A stretch of 34,426 bases of DNA from Nostoc sp. FACHB-280. GTDB lineage: Bacteria > Cyanobacteriota > Cyanobacteriia > Cyanobacteriales > Nostocaceae. Location: NCBI RefSeq assembly GCF_014697615.1, contig NZ_JACJSD010000063.1, positions 1 through 34,426 on the forward strand, given 5' to 3'. The notes below the pieces were generated by a model, which was not told where the DNA came from, searched no databases, and worked only from the letters and a program-made list of their open reading frames with translations. Both the position numbers and the translations under genes were made by a program. Positions 24,663 to 31,486 of the stretch are shown here, one piece after another (the first letter of the stretch is position 1; every line of letters begins with the position of its first letter).

Positions 24663-25257
24663 ATCTTCTGCTCTCAATTCTGGGTTTCCCACCCTTGCTA
24701 GGGTCATTTGCACCAGTATAACCAGTTGCTACCCACATTAACGCTCTAGCTCCATCACGGATAGATTTTTCTATTGGTTCTGGTGGTGATTTTGAAGGAA
24801 CAGATATCGGCTGAAAGTCAATTCCTCTGCTACCTAAAACTATCTCACCGATGACCGAAGCACGACGCATGTGGAAATCGGATGTAATCAAATAAACTCT
24901 TTTTATTCCCTTAGCTTTCAAATCATCTACTAAACTGGTAAAATTAGTAACTGTATCTACCGCTTCATAATCCAAGTGTAACCGCTTGGGATCAACACCA
25001 GCCTTGACAAACACACTGCGAGTTGTTCTAGGTGGACTCCCACCCGTAATCCAAATGGGTAACTTTGGATGCTTACGTACAAACTCCGCAGTAAATTTCT
25101 CTCTTTCTAATTTTCTGGTTGAACCACCCAATACTAAGACTGCTTGAGGTGGCTGGGATTGTTTTTGAACTTCTTTGTAACCGAACCAAATTAATATCGG
25201 TAAGGCAAGAAGCATAAACCGAAAAGATTTACCTGTAAACAAAAAATTGTTCTTCAA
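24661..25257 (-). CDS. YdcF-like (DUF218) membrane-anchored protein
   Basis: 198 residues. An N-terminal hydrophobic anchor (FMLLALPILIWFGY) is followed by the DUF218 core: AVLVLGGSTRKLER, LPIWITGGSP, a loop with DTVTNFTSL, and VYLITSDFHMRRA with the typical acidic/histidine pair. DUF218 proteins (ElyC, SanA, YdcF) affect envelope integrity; the reaction is unproven. The long reading starts with TTG at 25257; ATG 25215 would also give an anchored protein and may be the real start. The C-terminus is basic. Confidence 0.8.
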   Translation of the reverse strand: MKNNFLFTGKSFRFMLLALPILIWFGYKEVQKQSQPPQAVLVLGGSTRKLEREKFTAEFVRKHPKLPIWITGGSPPRTTRSVFVKAGVDPKRLHLDYEAVDTVTNFTSLVDDLKAKGIKRVYLITSDFHMRRASVIGEIVLGSRGIDFQPISVPSKSPPEPIEKSIRDGARALMWVATGYTGANDPSKGGKPRIESRR

Positions 25258-25323
25258 GGCTCTATGATTTCGTGTAGCTAAGACGTATATTCTCTGAATA
25301 AGCTAAAAATATAAGTTAGAGTA

Positions 25324-25354
25324 GCAGATTTTTAGCAAATCTGCCCTGTTTTTT
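25324..25354 (+). terminator. Plus-strand terminator-like hairpin without an upstream gene
   Basis: GCAGATTT (25324-25331) pairs exactly with AAATCTGC (25337-25344), followed by CCTGTTTTTT. There is no plus-strand gene in the preceding 700 bases, so it would end an unannotated short RNA or antisense transcript. Confidence 0.4.
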
Positions 25355-25647
25355 CCAAGGAATTTGCTGTTTCTACCTACTAATAAATTGAACATAAAAC
25401 CCATTAGCAGGCATTTAAGAGTTAAATTCACACAAATTCGGAATATTCCGTAAAAACTGCTGACTAATCATCTTGCTTCCATACTCTTGTAACTTACAAT
25501 CATCGGTTTATACCTTTAATCATCCTCTTTCGTTAGCTACCGGATGAATTGTACACTTAACCTTCAGAGATGGGTAGCATTATGGCCAAAAATTTGTATG
25601 ACTGAGCTAACTTGTCGGGCTATCACTCCATACTGAACCACTTACGA

Positions 25648-25684
25648 CACTAGAAGCACTCCGTTTTCATGAGTGCTTCTAGTG
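25648..25684. terminator. Perfect 14-bp hairpin at the end of the four-gene cassette
   Basis: CACTAGAAGCACTC (25648-25661) and GAGTGCTTCTAGTG (25671-25684) are exact complements over a 9-nt loop. It begins 23 bases past the stop of the last cassette gene. No T-run follows on the minus strand, so it may be a factor-dependent end, an RNA-stabilising hairpin or a repeat. Confidence 0.5.
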
Positions 25685-25707
25685 CCAACCTCTAAAAAAA
25701 TTAACAT

Positions 25708-26136
25708 CTAAGTTGTGTAAAACCTAACTTTTCCATCAGGATTGTTCTGATTGAATTTATCAGCAGCAATACTCGCGCTACCTGAAAGTCTGCTAATAAT
25801 TCGCTCATGCAAAATCATGGCTTGTTCAATATGACCATCTTCAATCATTTTTTCAAAAACTCTCATACTGACAGCAATGACGTTTTTGTTATTTTCAATA
25901 TCTGCCTCTAATTCAGCATCTAACTGTGCCATTCGACGCTCGATTGTTATACGTTGAAGCTCGGCATTTTTTTGGAATTTTAATCGATCAGTATTTTCTT
26001 CGTTGATTTGTTTCGCTAGATCCAATGCTTTACCGACTAGTGGAACCATCTGAAAAGCCAGTTCAACATATTCCGAAACTTGTGGGACTGCAACAATTTC
26101 TGCATAGTGTTTATTTGACATAATTTTCTCATCCAT
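25708..26136 (-). CDS. Small helical protein of unknown function, last gene of a four-gene cassette
   Basis: 142 residues, no family recognised, no signal peptide and no membrane segment. Residues 15-45 include a hydrophobic patch (EYVELAFQMVPLVGKALDLA). Residues 45-85 look like a charged coiled coil (RLKFQKNAELQRITIERRMAQ, AELEADIENN). The tail after residue 120 is Asn-rich and polar. It begins 6 nt after the stop of the membrane-protein gene, so the two are probably co-translated; AGGA of that gap can serve as ribosome binding site, and MSNKHY five residues in is an alternative start. Role unknown; likely partner of the upstream membrane protein. Confidence 0.65.
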   Translation of the reverse strand: MDEKIMSNKHYAEIVAVPQVSEYVELAFQMVPLVGKALDLAKQINEENTDRLKFQKNAELQRITIERRMAQLDAELEADIENNKNVIAVSMRVFEKMIEDGHIEQAMILHERIISRLSGSASIAADKFNQNNPDGKVRFYTT

Positions 26137-26142
26137 AACTTC

Positions 26143-27171
26143 CTAGTTCCTTCGATTAATAGGCTTAACTATTTCTTTTTGCATGATGGTCTTTAATGAC
26201 TGTCCTCCTTTGTAACAATCTTCAACAGCTTTTTGCTCTGTTTCTGGTAACTCAGATAATTTTTTACCTTGAGAAGATAATTGAATCACAGTATCAAGAT
26301 GCCGCATTATACAATTTACAGCAACTTCATGAACCCACCTTTCCTGCTTAATTCCTTCTGAAATCTTTCCATAGGTTCTTATAGCTCCGCTAATTTCCTC
26401 ACACATTAGATCAACATCTGCTTGTAATTTCTCAAGTTTTGTACGCTGCTGAGATGTAGTATAGAGATAAGAAATTCCACTAATAGCTGTGGCAATAGCA
26501 ATAGAGGCAATATCACCCTTTTGTAACTGTGTGAGATTTTTCCCCTGCAAAACACTTACTACATTTTGCGAAAAACCTTGAAATACGTTTGTTAATTCTC
26601 TATGAATCGCGTCAGGTTGTAAATCATTAGGATAGACAAAATCAAGAGCAACCTTTAATTCTCTTGGCGTTGGAATATTTTCATCTCGGAGACATAGTTC
26701 ATGAAAAAATGGTCTGATTGCAGCTTCATATTTTGGTATTAAGTCGGACTGTAGCTGATTCCTGTATTGTATTAATTGGTAAATATCATCATTAAGTACT
26801 AATTCAGCATCTAGTACTTGATTTTGAGCCATTTCATAGCGACTTTTTATTGAGTCTGCCCAGCCTTTGGGGTTCTCAAAGATGTTACTTGTTGACCGCT
26901 TATGCGAAGGTTGGATAGAAGGGTCATATTCATATAAGTTATGTTTTTGTCTTGCTAAAGCAATTGCTCTTTTGCGCTCTTCCTCAGTTTCTTTTGCTGC
27001 TCTTATTTTTTGTTCTTTTGCTACTCTTATTTTTTGTTCTTTTGACCAAATAACATATCCTATAAAAGTAATCGCACCTAAAATCAGTGCCACTAGAGGT
27101 GTTGCTGCCAAACATAATAGATAAATAATTCCAAGTATAAAAAAGCCGAATAATTTTAAGCAGCCCATCAT
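26143..27171 (-). CDS. Membrane protein with coiled coil and large cytosolic domain, unknown function
   Basis: 342 residues, no family recognised. Two membrane segments lie at the very start (about 5-24 and 26-44: FGFFILGIIYLLCLA, LVALILGAITFIGYVIW). A basic coiled coil with an eight-residue internal duplication (KEQKIRVA/KEQKIRAA), encoded by a 24-bp tandem repeat, follows. Residues 120-215 are helical; about 222-242 (GDIASIAIATAISGISYLY) is hydrophobic enough for a third span or a buried helix; the rest is charged helices. AAGGG precedes tandem ATGs. The gene lies 193 nt after the 619-residue protein and 6 nt before the small coiled-coil gene. The layout suggests a membrane-bound effector or scaffold; this is inference. 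Confidence 0.7.
   Translation of the reverse strand: MMGCLKLFGFFILGIIYLLCLAATPLVALILGAITFIGYVIWSKEQKIRVAKEQKIRAAKETEEERKRAIALARQKHNLYEYDPSIQPSHKRSTSNIFENPKGWADSIKSRYEMAQNQVLDAELVLNDDIYQLIQYRNQLQSDLIPKYEAAIRPFFHELCLRDENIPTPRELKVALDFVYPNDLQPDAIHRELTNVFQGFSQNVVSVLQGKNLTQLQKGDIASIAIATAISGISYLYTTSQQRTKLEKLQADVDLMCEEISGAIRTYGKISEGIKQERWVHEVAVNCIMRHLDTVIQLSSQGKKLSELPETEQKAVEDCYKGGQSLKTIMQKEIVKPINRRN
26997..27044. repeat. 24-bp tandem duplication inside the membrane-protein gene
   Basis: Two copies, 26997-27020 and 27021-27044, differ at one base (CTGC versus CTAC at the start). They encode the repeated octapeptide of the coiled coil. The frame is kept. Confidence 0.85.
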
Positions 27172-27364
27172 TATAACCCTTTAAAAACTCAAAATTTTAC
27201 AATCCAGTTTTTTAGGAGACGTTTTAGGAATTTCAACCAATTTCAGAAATTCTGTTTAATCAAATTTCATTTTACAAGTAATTTTTTTTATTACTGATAA
27301 CTGTAGTTAAAAAGTTACGCATAATATATTCACGTTGAATATGATTTTATTTCAAAATCGAATT

Positions 27365-29224
27365 CTAAACTTCAAATCCATATTTTTCTCTTAATAAAAT
27401 TTTCAGTTCATTATTAGGTTCTTCTCCATAACAAGAACCAATAACCTTTCCATAATTCTCTAAATCAAGAATACTTGTATTTAATTTGAGTGCTTCTATA
27501 AACTCTTGTTCTAAATGTGGACTTACATAAATAAAATAATATGCCCATCGACCGCTACTATCTTTAGCCTTGAGTTTATGAATAAGATGACCTCGTTCTG
27601 CAAAAAACTTATTTTCATGCTTGTGATTATTGTTTTTTTGCTTTAGTGCATCTACATTACCCATACCAATAAGTCCTAAAAAACAACGTTCAGGTAAGTT
27701 GTATTTATCTTGATCATCCTTTGAGGAATTTAATCCATACTTGAGTGCAGAGACAACTTGAAAATTACCTATAAACACTAAATAAACTAATGCTTCGTCA
27801 CGGTCATTATAAGAGTACATATTATCCCGAAAAACTTGCAGAAGCGGGTCTATCATTTCCGTTATAAAGCACCCTAGCCTTCCTAACGCAATGGCTACAC
27901 GTCTTTTAGCTATGCTCGGTAAATGTGAAAAGATTAAACTTTTTATCGCTTCAATATCTTTTGGGTGATGGAGATGTGATATTTTTGGTACATTCTTTAG
28001 AGGCTTACCTCCATCTGCCACAACCACCCATTCGTAAATCCAGTCTGCTTGAGCAAATACAGTTTTTTTAGGAGTACATACACTCAAAATCAGAGCAGAA
28101 TAACTCCGCGCAAAAGCATCATGTTTGTTATTCATAACAACTTGCCGCAAAATGTCTAGTTCTTCATTAGCAAAAGTATAGTTTTTATAAGAAAAACTAT
28201 CTCTTGCGCTTGTTAGCCATGAAAGCGCCCATATTGCTGTAGTTGACACTGCATAATTACTCTCTGTATCTTGTTGAACAGCAGTAAGCAATACTTTTAC
28301 TACTTTACGCAAGAGTAAATCTGGTAAGAAATCTATTCTTGTACTATTCTTCTGAACTTGTGGACGATAAAATGTTTCAATTAAGTTGAATGCTGCGTTA
28401 ATTCGTTCTTCAACCGAGTATAAGATATTTAGTTTTTCCAACAAGGGTGTTAATATTTGAGTTGCATTTCCGACATTGAGAATTTCAATATTTGTGATTG
28501 CTATATTGAGAAAAATACTACCAATTTTGTTTCGACGATCATCACGATTTTGTATATAACTTTGTAATAATCTTTCATACAAGATTTGTCCAAAACAAGA
28601 CTGCATAACTGAAGCAAAGGCTTCATCCATTAAAGTATATGATTTGCTTAAGCCATCAAGGTCGCTGAGATTATTTATAGCTTTATCTATTACTAAATAA
28701 ACTGTCTCGTCCTTCAAATCAAGCTCTGTTGCTAGGCATTGCATAGCAAAATTAGACAAAGCACGAGCTTCTTTCGATGATCTTTCATCAGATAACAGCC
28801 TTAAAATTACATCATCAGCAGTGACAAGACCTAAATACTCTGACTGATTGTTTTTTTGACCTATTTTAGATATCGCAAGACGCATAAACTCCCGCCAGTG
28901 AGTAGCAACAACTGGCTCAGTTTTTTGATTTGTACCCAAAATTTCAATTGGTCTGTCTACAATCGGTATGTTATGCACCTTTTGAAACAAAGAATCTAAT
29001 ATATCTAAACTTTTTTGTTGGCGCTCTTTTTTTAGAGATTCTATGTTCTTAGCTACCCTTACTATTTCTTTCTCACATTCTTCAATTTTTTTTCGTAATC
29101 TAAATCTTTGTTCTACACTACTAATAACAAGTTCTTTCTCTAGATAAGCAAGTTGTTCTTGCCACCAAGTCTTCGCCTCTTCTAGATCCTTTAAAATCCC
29201 ATATTCCCGATTATCTGCTGACAT
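27365..29224 (-). CDS. Large helical-repeat (HEAT-like) protein with an N-terminal effector-associated-like module
   Basis: 619 residues, soluble, mostly alpha-helical. Residues 10-65 form a helical hairpin/coiled coil (WWQEQLAYLEKELVI, then RFRLRKKIEECEKEI). It resembles the N-terminus of the upstream 159-residue protein and cyanobacterial effector-associated/death-like adaptor domains. Residues about 110-530 look like HEAT/ARM-type helical repeats (for example AKRRVAIALGRLG, DEALVYLVFIGNFQVVSALKYGL). The last 60 residues (WAYYFIYVSPHLEQEFIEAL, then LENYGKVIGSCYGEEP and EKYGFEV) look like a separate compact module. No catalytic motif is visible, so a sensing or scaffold role is the best guess. 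The start has GGAG seven bases upstream, inside the end of the preceding gene (3-nt gap): coupled translation. Confidence 0.7.
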   Translation of the reverse strand: MSADNREYGILKDLEEAKTWWQEQLAYLEKELVISSVEQRFRLRKKIEECEKEIVRVAKNIESLKKERQQKSLDILDSLFQKVHNIPIVDRPIEILGTNQKTEPVVATHWREFMRLAISKIGQKNNQSEYLGLVTADDVILRLLSDERSSKEARALSNFAMQCLATELDLKDETVYLVIDKAINNLSDLDGLSKSYTLMDEAFASVMQSCFGQILYERLLQSYIQNRDDRRNKIGSIFLNIAITNIEILNVGNATQILTPLLEKLNILYSVEERINAAFNLIETFYRPQVQKNSTRIDFLPDLLLRKVVKVLLTAVQQDTESNYAVSTTAIWALSWLTSARDSFSYKNYTFANEELDILRQVVMNNKHDAFARSYSALILSVCTPKKTVFAQADWIYEWVVVADGGKPLKNVPKISHLHHPKDIEAIKSLIFSHLPSIAKRRVAIALGRLGCFITEMIDPLLQVFRDNMYSYNDRDEALVYLVFIGNFQVVSALKYGLNSSKDDQDKYNLPERCFLGLIGMGNVDALKQKNNNHKHENKFFAERGHLIHKLKAKDSSGRWAYYFIYVSPHLEQEFIEALKLNTSILDLENYGKVIGSCYGEEPNNELKILLREKYGFEV

Positions 29225-29227
29225 TCT

Positions 29228-29707
29228 CTATCTCCGAACTATTCTCTTAATTTTCTGCCATGCTTTGTACATCAAGCCCTCGGTTTCCATCTCCAGTTCG
29301 TAAGATGCGATCGCAGGAATTAAAGGCAACACTACCTTCAACTTGGCTGAAGCTGCTTTATCTTGCTCCTCTAACTTGTCTCGAATTTCGTGCAGCAGAA
29401 AAATTAATTCTGAAGGATGAGTAGTAGAAGATATCTGTTCTATAGATACAACTGCTTGTTCTACTTTAACCAGTTGGGTTTCTGCTTCCTCATCAGAGAT
29501 AATAATTGCTTCTTGTGGGTAAAGTCCCCAGTATTCTGTTTCGTATTTACGAATAGCCGGAAGAATATCTCGCCTAATGCGTTGCTTCATCTCAACCCTC
29601 ACAGTTATATGAGGATTCATGATTAACTCTTTTTCAAATTCCCCTAGTTGTTCGTAGAGTATATTTAAAATATCTTTTAAGTCGTTCAGTCTATCGTAAT
29701 CGCCCAT
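29228..29707 (-). CDS. Small protein with effector-associated/death-like helical module, first gene of the cassette
   Basis: 159 residues. Residues 5-62 show the pattern LYEQLGEFEKELIM, then R-rich helix VEMKQRIRRDILPAIRKYE and a final EYWGLY. This is the arrangement I recall at the ends of many cyanobacterial STAND-ATPase, caspase and CHAT proteins (an EAD/bacterial death-like adaptor). The next protein starts with a related EQLxxxEKEL motif. Residues 80-150 form further helices with an acidic coiled coil (LIFLLHEIRDKLEEQDKAA), and the C-terminus is basic (KIKRIVRR). No enzyme motif and no membrane span. Likely an adaptor that binds the next protein by like-with-like pairing; that is inference. 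It carries the only HIP1 site of the cassette (29308). Confidence 0.65.
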   Translation of the reverse strand: MGDYDRLNDLKDILNILYEQLGEFEKELIMNPHITVRVEMKQRIRRDILPAIRKYETEYWGLYPQEAIIISDEEAETQLVKVEQAVVSIEQISSTTHPSELIFLLHEIRDKLEEQDKAASAKLKVVLPLIPAIASYELEMETEGLMYKAWQKIKRIVRR

Positions 29708-30294
29708 AATTTAATTTATTTTTGTTAAAATAATACAGTTTTAGAAAATTCTGAATTATGAAATCAAATCATTTGAGTTAATTTTTATACTTTAACTAAA
29801 GTAATATCTTTCTTTTTTTACGCCAGAGTGAAGCCTTAATTTTTAGTTTGATGAAATGCCAGAGATTTGTTAATTTTTCCAAAAACCACATCAATAAGGG
29901 TATACTGTTCCAGATTTGATTTTTGACAAAATAGACTGGATAAAAGCTTGACATAATATATGCAAGTTTAGTTTTTCAGTATATTTAGCAATATTGAATC
30001 AAAATTATTCTAATCTAAATAGGAGTATTTCAGCATTTCTTCTGATTAGAATAGCATAAGGTTTTTCTGTCTTGCAAAACTCTGCAATAAATGGTTTTTA
30101 GTCGATATGCCTGTTTGTTGGAATGTTTGACTCTTGAAATGACGTAAAATCCAGGGCTTAAAATATATGTATTACATATCTTTACAACCCACCTCAATTT
30201 ATGGGGATCTCAGTGTTTCCCCCTAAAGTCACTTGTTTCACAACTTTGTGAGCTTTCCCTTGTTTTTTGAAGATTGAAGGGATTATTTAGTAAA
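29708..30294. other. AT-rich upstream region of the four-gene cassette
   Basis: 587 bases without a supported gene, strongly AT rich. It lies between the cassette start (minus) and the 3' end of tRNA-Arg. An inverted repeat TATTCTAATC/GATTAGAATA is at 30006-30015 and 30044-30053. The cassette promoter should be here. No integrase gene and no copy of the tRNA 3' end was seen. Confidence 0.55.
30006..30053. repeat. Perfect 10-bp inverted repeat upstream of the cassette
   Basis: TATTCTAATC (30006-30015) and GATTAGAATA (30044-30053) are exact complements separated by 28 bases. It may be a binding site pair or the end of an element; 300 bp before the first cassette gene. Confidence 0.35.
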
Positions 30295-30368
30295 CGGGAC
30301 TGGTGCGTCTCGAACGCACGACCTAGCGCTTAGGAGGCGCTCGCTCTATCCAACTGAGCTACAGCCCC
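30295..30368 (-). tRNA. tRNA-Arg (anticodon CCU)
   Basis: 74 nt fold as a full cloverleaf on the minus strand. The acceptor GGGGCTG pairs with CAGTCCC, with discriminator G. The D arm contains AGCTCAGTTGGATAGAGC. The anticodon stem AGCGC/GCGCT holds the loop CTCCTAA (anticodon CCU, reading AGG), and the T arm has GTTCGAA. The 3' CCA is not encoded. Its 3' end faces the four-gene cassette. Confidence 0.95.
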
Positions 30369-30400
30369 AACTACGAAGCATAAATATAATAGCAGTAGTT

Positions 30401-31486
<1,086 letters not shown>

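Follow-up and report, generated by a model that had tools for sequence, protein, structure and literature searches.

The window analysed here is the complete contig NZ_JACJSD010000063.1 of Nostoc sp. FACHB-280 (assembly GCF_014697615.1), 34,426 nucleotides (nt) long, and our subject is a cassette of four minus-strand genes, p1 to p4 (genes 1 to 4 in the order of transcription), which lies in an island next to a tRNA-Arg gene (Table 1). A first-pass annotation of this DNA had placed four genes at exactly these limits, with gaps of 3, 193 and 6 nt (p1/p2, p2/p3 and p3/p4), and the list of open reading frames (ORFs) reproduces them to the letter. It had also called the stretch AT-rich, which holds for the GC content (0.30-0.37 in the five 1-kb blocks from 25001 to 30000) but is not peculiar to the cassette, as the remaining blocks of the window (0.33-0.48) reach down to 0.33. 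Its remark that no obvious enzyme motif is present was borne out: p1, p2, p3 and p4 have neither a Walker A pattern nor a match at curated cut-off in Pfam or NCBIfam, and PADLOC and PHROGs (E 0.01) return no match for them either. The same goes for p3 as a membrane protein, with hydrophobic segments near the N-terminus (residues ~1-45), and for the helical repeats of p2, where the window protein falls short of the HEAT_2 threshold (22.3 of 27.7 bits) but many relatives are listed with this domain.

The four ORFs are genuine genes, beyond what chance would give, since protein searches return relatives besides the window's own for p1 (269), p2 (40) and p3 (30), some of them partial. None of these three has a solved relative by sequence at E 0.1. 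In the island, promoter-like sites are fewer than in shuffles (11 versus 18.9) and terminator-like sites are more (6 versus 2.2), the latter all within genes; neither site class was used.

Table 1. Features of the cassette and its surroundings in the window (EAD, effector-associated domain; aa, amino acids; HMM, hidden Markov model; AF2, AlphaFold2)
Feature	Position	Strand	Description or basis
p1	29228..29707	-	159 aa; ATG ORF; constant adaptor-like protein, predicted all-helical
p1 N-terminal helical hairpin, residues ~5-48	29564..29695	-	family-level hhalign; AF2 helices 3-30, 34-65
p2	27365..29224	-	619 aa; ATG ORF; EAD9-like hairpin, HEAT region and C-terminal module
p2 N-terminal EAD9-like hairpin, residues 9-74	29003..29200	-	hairpin HMM, hhalign, EAD9 profile
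p2 HEAT region, residues ~75-530	27635..29002	-	blastp to P0033, P0036, P0040, P0041 (44-49%, main alignment)
p2 C-terminal 88-aa module, residues 532-619	27368..27631	-	separate ORF in L006/L007/L008; end of a 1050-aa plasmid protein
p3	26143..27171	-	342 aa; ATG ORF; membrane protein, N-terminal hydrophobic hairpin and long helical bundle (predicted)
p3 N-terminal hydrophobic segments, residues 1-45	27037..27171	-	hydropathy
p4	25708..26136	-	142 aa; ATG ORF; partner of p3; helical/coiled-coil by reading only
Island, whole inserted segment	25468..30293		flanks to ~25467 and from 30294 adjoin in sister genomes
Island left end	25462..25566		~83% identical to ends of the L138/L143 integrase elements (blastn-short)
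tRNA-Arg (anticodon CCT)	30294..30369	-	ARAGORN; island abuts its 3' end

The tRNA-Arg site in the window and in sister genomes

From the tRNA-Arg site of all ten sister genomes the cassette is absent. Each of the ten loci has the same tRNA-Arg(CCT) according to ARAGORN, and the gene at 30401-31486 is kept in all 11 genomes of the genus examined, the window's included. The gap between the aligned flanks, occupied here by the island of ~4.8 kb, is 22-41 nt in seven sisters (L135, L136, L137, L139-L142) and 144 nt in L144, where the left alignment ends earlier; in L138 and L143 an element of ~2 kb lies between the flanks instead of the cassette. Both elements encode an ORF of 397 aa, which in L138 matches Phage_integrase (1.1e-10) together with an arm DNA-binding domain and in L143 reads much the same by eye, the Pfam scan having covered L138 only. 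The L138 element has the tRNA end at both of its own ends. Apart from these tyrosine integrase ORFs (L138:6563-7756, L143:5759-6952), the two elements hold hardly any cargo.

tRNA-Arg(CCT) is an integration hotspot of the genus; a literature search on tRNA-Arg islands brought up only unrelated papers. Since the flanks adjoin in the sisters, the tRNA gene stands at the border and integrase elements occupy the same site, the cassette is recently gained accessory DNA at an integration site, inserted precisely at the tRNA 3' end and facing empty sites in its relatives. Two further marks of a tRNA-integrated island, an integrase gene and a duplicated tRNA end, are missing from the window, which holds no relative of the sister integrases and one copy only of the tRNA end. 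Perhaps the cassette was left behind by, or carried with, an integrase element of the L138/L143 type. In sister genome G324, the sole sister among the genomes searched with the p1 profile, p1 has no match elsewhere, and p3 is absent from all ten sisters.

Findings such as these invite the idea of a selfish or addiction-type island, with genes that serve its own maintenance. The use of the tRNA-Arg site by integrase elements in two sisters, their similar left end and the tyrosine recombinase next to a p1 relative on one Nostoc plasmid would all fit. However, with both the integrase relative and the second tRNA end lacking from the window, and with no tRNA in the 21 p1 loci scanned or in the stretch that holds a p3 relative (L058), we consider this idea highly unlikely.

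p1, a constant protein with exchanged partners

The search for p1 returned 270 proteins, the window's own included, with ~64-84% identity among the best 120 of the 270. A profile built from 30 family members (A1) finds the family in 73 of 388 genomes sampled from the order; a scan of genome contigs with a single sequence as query gave 3 loci only. In none of the 30 A1 members is there a Pfam match of weight, and TRADD-like_N (PF20694) matches neither the window's p1 (E up to 1) nor these members (E 0.1). DASH_Ask1, which 27 of the 30 touch at E 0.1 (best 3.7e-4) and to which the window protein scores 15 of 20.7 bits, was set aside as a helix match. By hydropathy, p1 has no transmembrane (TM)-like segment. 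Its AF2 model (pLDDT 66.9, pTM 0.45) has helices at residues 3-30 and 34-65, and as model confidence is middling and Foldseek gives nothing better than E 1.3, we claim no fold for it. Two plasmid relatives of p1 were found, in Nostoc sp. C057 and Calothrix sp. PCC 7716, both below 60% identity; on the former plasmid (p057_E, typed as mobilizable) the p1 relative is followed by an FGS gene and lies beside a tyrosine recombinase (L147:5001-6463). No relative of p1 or p3 was confirmed among viral contigs.

We surveyed the neighbourhood of p1 in 81 stretches (the window, L007, L008, L039-L078 and L080-L118 without L117), which represent part of the loci that match A1; L006, L079, L117 and short search loci were omitted as duplicates. 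The survey's ORF caller greedily takes the longest ORF, which means that a true partner may be masked by a small spurious ORF, and some partners are truncated where their contig ends. On these terms, the 81 stretches yielded 81 p1-family ORFs of at least 40 bits, 17 of them being close relatives of at least 200 bits. No p1 ORF at 40 bits was seen in L058, L059, L074, L076, L077 and L088, of which L058, L076 and L077 had been fetched for p3.

Behind 11 of the 17 close p1 ORFs, exactly 3 nt downstream, stands the gene of a partner protein that begins with a helical hairpin of ~65 aa. What follows the hairpin is exchanged between loci: with the gene 3 nt downstream, the C-terminus is HEAT in the window, L039, L007 and L008, GUN4 in L040, L041, L042 and L043, NB-ARC-TPR in L048 and a STAND-like ATPase in L045. 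In L043, one of the 11, the downstream hairpin protein is a p1 too, with an additional hairpin. At wider gaps, the partner is of the NB-ARC-TPR type in L052 (12 nt) and an FGS protein in L057 (44 nt). The Tolypothrix locus holds another p1, which is shortened and has a hairpin-bDLD3 fusion (6.8e-32) behind it. Taking the 81 members of the p1 family together, 17 have a hairpin (at least 25 bits) in the gene that follows. Distant p1 relatives stand upstream of nSTAND1, NACHT, NB-ARC or GUN4 genes in which no hairpin could be recognised, some with FGS genes close by, these partner classes having been assigned via similarity to Pfam-scanned examples. p1 is, in other words, a constant adaptor-like component with swapped partners.

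Evidence that the two families have more in common than their adjacency comes from an HMM seeded on 14 partner N-termini (threshold E 0.01). It picks up the N-terminus in 16 of the 17 close p1 ORFs and in 35 of all 81, and in the 1157 ORFs of the 81 stretches it matches p1 genes, the genes next to them and one further ORF, a hairpin gene two places from p1 in L053. In a single hhalign comparison, the p1 family (window p1 included) aligned to the partner hairpins with a probability of 96% (E 4.4e-9). Based on this recovery and this alignment, p1 and its partners appear to carry like hairpin modules, more diverged in the p1 of the window. Because 11 of 17 close relatives have hairpin partners, 16 of 17 have a hairpin of their own by HMM and the partner domains vary, the arrangement follows the EAD principle, in which adjacent genes share a small, non-enzymatic module, the one gene being constant and the other joining the module to varied effector or signalling domains.

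Other members of the family carry p1 as a domain within larger proteins. In L070 it is fused to TRADD-like_N (4.1e-15), the protein of 407 aa (L070:7551-8774) having TRADD-like_N first and the p1 domain at its C-terminus, and in L087 it is fused to WD40. A 660-aa protein (L075:6685-8667) has the p1 domain at its end and no Pfam match at 1e-4; its N-terminal 500 residues could be an effector. Two p1 domains flank a hairpin in a protein of 419 aa (L050:1879-3138), and the WD40 protein of L055 opens with a p1-type hairpin, as do like-sized proteins of L082 and L083.

GUN4 being a frequent partner, p1 and its partners might also be seen as a general intracellular signalling scaffold (reporting, for example, tetrapyrrole or stress status via GUN4) rather than as a conflict system. 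This would sit well with p1 relatives in 73 of 388 genomes and with the fact that no known defence model matches the four proteins. It would sit less well with partners that also include STAND NTPases, FGS and single cases of bDLD3 and TRADD-N, or with a patchy presence and, here, an island state. Moreover, the available parts of two papers (PMC7159879, PMC8195603) have GUN4 among the variable domains of ternary and TRADD-N conflict systems. All in all, a mere scaffold strikes us as unlikely.

As for the identity of the hairpin, 7 of the 14 partner hairpins touch EAD9 in Pfam (best E 0.003) and equally 7 touch Spc24. A search of 15 genomes with the EAD9 profile (PF19962) gave two matches above cut-off and many weak ones. 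In 307 frames, the hairpin HMM matches the first, second and fourth best of these EAD9 matches (L149, L150, L164) at 5e-7 to 7e-7, and thus shows a profile likeness to the best EAD9 matches of related genomes; one other weak match (L175, E 0.0037) is to an ordinary-looking coiled coil. L149 and L150 are above the EAD9 cut-off when counted with their neighbours in frame. The gene of L149, covered by L183 as well, matches iSTAND (1.3e-35) and EAD9 (E 1.1e-4) and is followed by AAA/MoxR-like, vWA-CoxE and FGS genes. Standing in a row (L183:4535-9554), these four make up a ternary conflict system in a Tolypothrix genome (G303), the same genome that has a p1-p2-EcsC-bDLD3 cassette. The L150 protein starts with what reads by eye as a TIR domain, and that of L164 has caspase, EAD9 and FGS matches. 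The hairpin thus seems EAD9-like, and an EAD by its genetics; because the formal Pfam cut-off is missed, we name it EAD9-like and do not file it as EAD9.

The HEAT protein p2 and the membrane pair p3-p4

Residues 75-512 of p2 align behind the NACHT domain of P0036 at 49% identity (blastp), similar stretches align in P0033, P0040 and P0041 at 44-45%, and P0021 has the same HEAT region (67%) behind a different N-terminal part. p2 itself has no Walker A and no NTPase match in Pfam, which leaves it without the P-loop NTPase of NLR-like proteins. Judged from these alignments, its HEAT region is that of NACHT-HEAT proteins, with the hairpin in the place of NACHT. Of the 41 p2-family proteins (window p2 among them) returned by a search that scored 8000 candidates, 29 have the hairpin. 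The C-terminal 88-aa module is fused in other p2-family proteins, too; it has two plasmid relatives, in Nostoc ATCC 53789 and Runella sp. SP2, and no phage match. In the former, on plasmid pNsp_l, it forms the end (60% over 91 aa) of the 1050-aa protein (L148:3094-6246), which reads by eye like a helix-turn-helix plus a STAND ATPase and has no Pfam match at 1e-4.

The model of p3 (pLDDT 76.6, pTM 0.61; residues 209-238 at very low confidence) predicts a long helical bundle and, at the N-terminus, a hydrophobic hairpin. Foldseek and VIA-align matches that would make p3 an IKK/TBK1 scaffold, a BAR domain or a long-helix pore former were without significance, and scattered Pfam matches to CCB1 (4 of 24 members) and YajC (3) were set aside as helix or membrane matches. 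Strong p3 matches are confined to the window genome and to G173 in overlapping samples of 291, 386, 217 and 20 genomes; marginal ones in G214, G500, G724-726 and G749 (E 1.3e-4 to 9.3e-4) were not counted, being short or, in the case of G214, longer but with an internal stop. Plasmid relatives of p3 were not found. In 388 genomes, p4 occurs beside p3 in the window genome and in G173, where it is 73% identical and adjoins p3 (L058); a weak match in G139 (29% identity, E 2.7e-4) falls within a frame that looks by eye like that of a histidine kinase and was taken as a coiled-coil chance match. Because the G173 contig breaks off ~110 nt upstream of the p3 match, it can neither show nor exclude p1-p2. 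Seven p3-family contigs exceed 26 kb, and p3-p4 is missing from the 14.5-kb stretches that carry p1-p2 in Tolypothrix, Calothrix and Plectonema. A p1 relative (P0074) and a p3 relative (P0050) from one source lie on contigs of equal size (2856), which may be chance; if the contig is the same, p1 and p3 would be near neighbours there without a full-length HEAT partner.

Other genes stand behind p1-p2 elsewhere. In L006, a 251-aa protein with an EcsC match in Pfam follows p1-p2 and a small ORF, and in L008 that position is taken by an ORF with matching length and hydropathy. Small ORFs, several of which have a hydrophobic segment, and one AAA-ATPase-like ORF line up at L007:9773-13444, behind the Calothrix p1-p2. 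A variable membrane slot behind p1-p2 is a lead, not a result.

A conflict-system reading and known systems

We explain the locus best as tRNA-Arg-site cargo with two neighbouring modules, p1-p2 being of the kind seen in predicted EAD-type conflict systems and p3-p4 a putative effector, and we give this reading a probability of about 0.6. That p1-p2 belongs to an EAD-coupled conflict network is quite probable. Its conflict-system reading is supported, because the family keeps company with STAND NTPases, GUN4, FGS and single TRADD-N and bDLD3 cases; its immune role is putative. There is, in short, good though indirect support for placing one half of the cassette in a cyanobacterial EAD-type conflict network, the other half being a rare membrane pair. 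As to mechanism, p1 and p2 would assemble via their like hairpins, and the HEAT superhelix of p2, a part that in NACHT-HEAT proteins comes after the NTPase, would offer a recognition surface; whether HEAT is indeed the sensing part is, in our view, an even bet. The C-terminal module, shared with the end of the STAND-ATPase-like plasmid protein, may be part of what p2 presents. Upon detection of an invader or of damage within the cell, the p1-p2 complex would undergo a change or oligomerise and then signal to an effector, for which p3-p4 at the membrane would be the most plausible candidate here, as suggested by its position. A joint action of p3-p4 with p1-p2 is tentative, falling somewhat short of even odds, and membrane damage or growth arrest as the outcome is more doubtful still.

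Several of our findings speak against such a reading. At E 0.01, the hairpin HMM does not match the window's own p1, the sole exception among the close relatives, and the A3 model has no match to the window p1 in the genome at E 0.1. The window hairpin (14.6-14.8 bits) stays far below the EAD9 cut-off of 25 bits, and the partner hairpins among the weak PF19962 matches have E values of 0.205 (window), 0.056 (L052), 0.107 (L041) and 0.487 (L057). That profile picks up other proteins as well: 10 of 14 control genomes have matches to it, all of them below cut-off. The hairpin HMM misses the third best EAD9 match (L151), and the EAD9 label of L149 and L164 is not beyond doubt, because their whole-protein scores (22.3 and 16.9 bits, respectively) are below 25 bits. 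Our genome itself has no EAD9 match above cut-off, so that no ternary core to couple to is seen in it. Across the p1 family, 64 of 81 ORFs have a next gene without the hairpin, and PADLOC, NCBIfam and PHROGs hold nothing credible for the four proteins. Nor do p3-p4 appear to travel with p1-p2: the listed clusters of the p2 and p3 families share no contigs of equal size besides the window's, by an indirect comparison that uses the longest contig per cluster. In L007, it is a non-hydrophobic, soluble-looking ORF of 195 aa that comes right after the small ORF, followed by hydrophobic ORFs.

Those points that concern the hairpin could be taken to mean that its similarity is generic coiled-coil resemblance, with no special module common to p1 and p2. 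The EAD9 profile is, after all, non-specific below cut-off, the hairpin HMM matches the L175 coiled coil weakly (0.0037) while missing the window p1, and the p1 model is of middling confidence. Yet the restriction of that HMM, in 1157 ORFs, to p1 genes, the genes next to them and the one hairpin gene of L053 argues against mere resemblance, even if this specificity has to be read with the caveat that 14 partners were its seed; we regard generic resemblance as most unlikely. The N-terminal motif that the first-pass annotation saw in both genes stands at the family level but is weak when the window's p1 and p2 are aligned directly (35% identity over 46 residues, E 0.018). Of the effector-associated or death-like modules proposed for them, the EAD9-like N-terminus has survived, whereas neither p1 nor p2 matches a death-fold family.

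A more serious alternative, which we rate at close to an even chance, holds that the island combines two unrelated cargo modules, a conflict or signalling pair p1-p2 and an independent membrane pair p3-p4, brought together by chance. It draws on the lack of equal-sized contigs between the 40 p2 and 30 p3 relatives outside the window, on a p3-p4 pair without p1-p2 in L058 (though that contig breaks off just upstream of p3), on the 193-nt gap between p2 and p3 and on the unequal spread of p3 (strong in 2 genomes only) and p1 (73 of 388). Set against this are the common strand and compactness of the island and the fact that L006 and L008 also have an ORF with hydrophobic segment behind p1-p2 and a small ORF (EcsC in L006). 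The contig comparison is, moreover, indirect, having one contig per cluster, 8000 candidates for p2 and the best 120 of 270 for p1, and the P0074 (p1) and P0050 (p3) contigs match in size, be it by chance. The earlier picture of four genes as one conserved set is not supported: p1-p2 and p3-p4 were not seen travelling together in the other loci compared, which by the first-pass annotation's own yardstick of joint conservation tells against the four-gene set but not against the p1-p2 pair.

If our reading of p1-p2 as part of a conflict network is true, the p1 family, which is without a match in Pfam, NCBIfam or PADLOC, marks a variable-sensor network in about one fifth of the sampled genomes (73 of 388), and an EAD-HEAT protein without NTPase shows receptor and switch of NLR-like proteins to be separable. 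A rather unlikely twist would have p1-p2 as an NTPase-free split NLR, in which the EAD9-like hairpin replaces the nucleotide switch of a NACHT-HEAT receptor, adaptor assembly by itself relays what HEAT senses, p1 as a constant adaptor family not named before serves many receptor types across cyanobacteria and exchangeable membrane effectors (p3-p4 here, EcsC in Tolypothrix) stand behind.

EADs, EACC1/2 and TRADD-N with STAND neighbours, and GUN4, FGS and HEAT as variable domains, are described in the parts available to us of PMC8195603, PMC7159879 and PMC10907252. In those parts we have not met the p1 family, which may figure in their supplements under another label, and among the papers listed by our literature searches none deals with it, judged from title or opening of the abstract. 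As far as these sources go, EACC1/EACC2 two-gene systems (PMC7159879, PMC8195603) resemble p1-p2 in having a constant component and highly variable partner domains; they differ in that p2 has no caspase match and p1 no TM-like segment, whereas the constant EACC1 protein has one TM helix. With TRADD-N proteins and their STAND-NTPase neighbourhoods (Kaur et al. 2021, PMC8195603, again in part) our family shares the p1-TRADD-like_N fusion of L070 and the p1 relatives upstream of NB-ARC (AP-ATPase) genes, but the window p1 is without a TRADD-N match.

To the NACHT-HEAT proteins (NLR-like: P0036, P0040, P0041) p2 is linked by a HEAT region with 45-49% identity and set apart by a hairpin where these have their NTPase, p2 having no NTPase match or Walker A. 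Ternary iSTAND/VMAP MoxR-vWA systems, as the accessible text of PMC7159879 presents them, have in common with p1-p2 an EAD9-type module and FGS, HEAT and GUN4 as variable domains, and one in the arrangement of Kaur et al. 2020 lies in G303 alongside its p1-p2 cassette; the island, in contrast, has no MoxR, vWA, iSTAND or VMAP gene. A further parallel is the EAD principle itself with EAD9 (PF19962; Kaur et al. 2020, PMC7159879). Although the window hairpin scores far below the Pfam cut-off and the constant p1 is neither MoxR-vWA nor GAP1 nor another core named in the accessible part of that paper, the p1-p2 pair has what is described there, a small helical module in two adjacent genes, one of them constant and the other with swapped domains.

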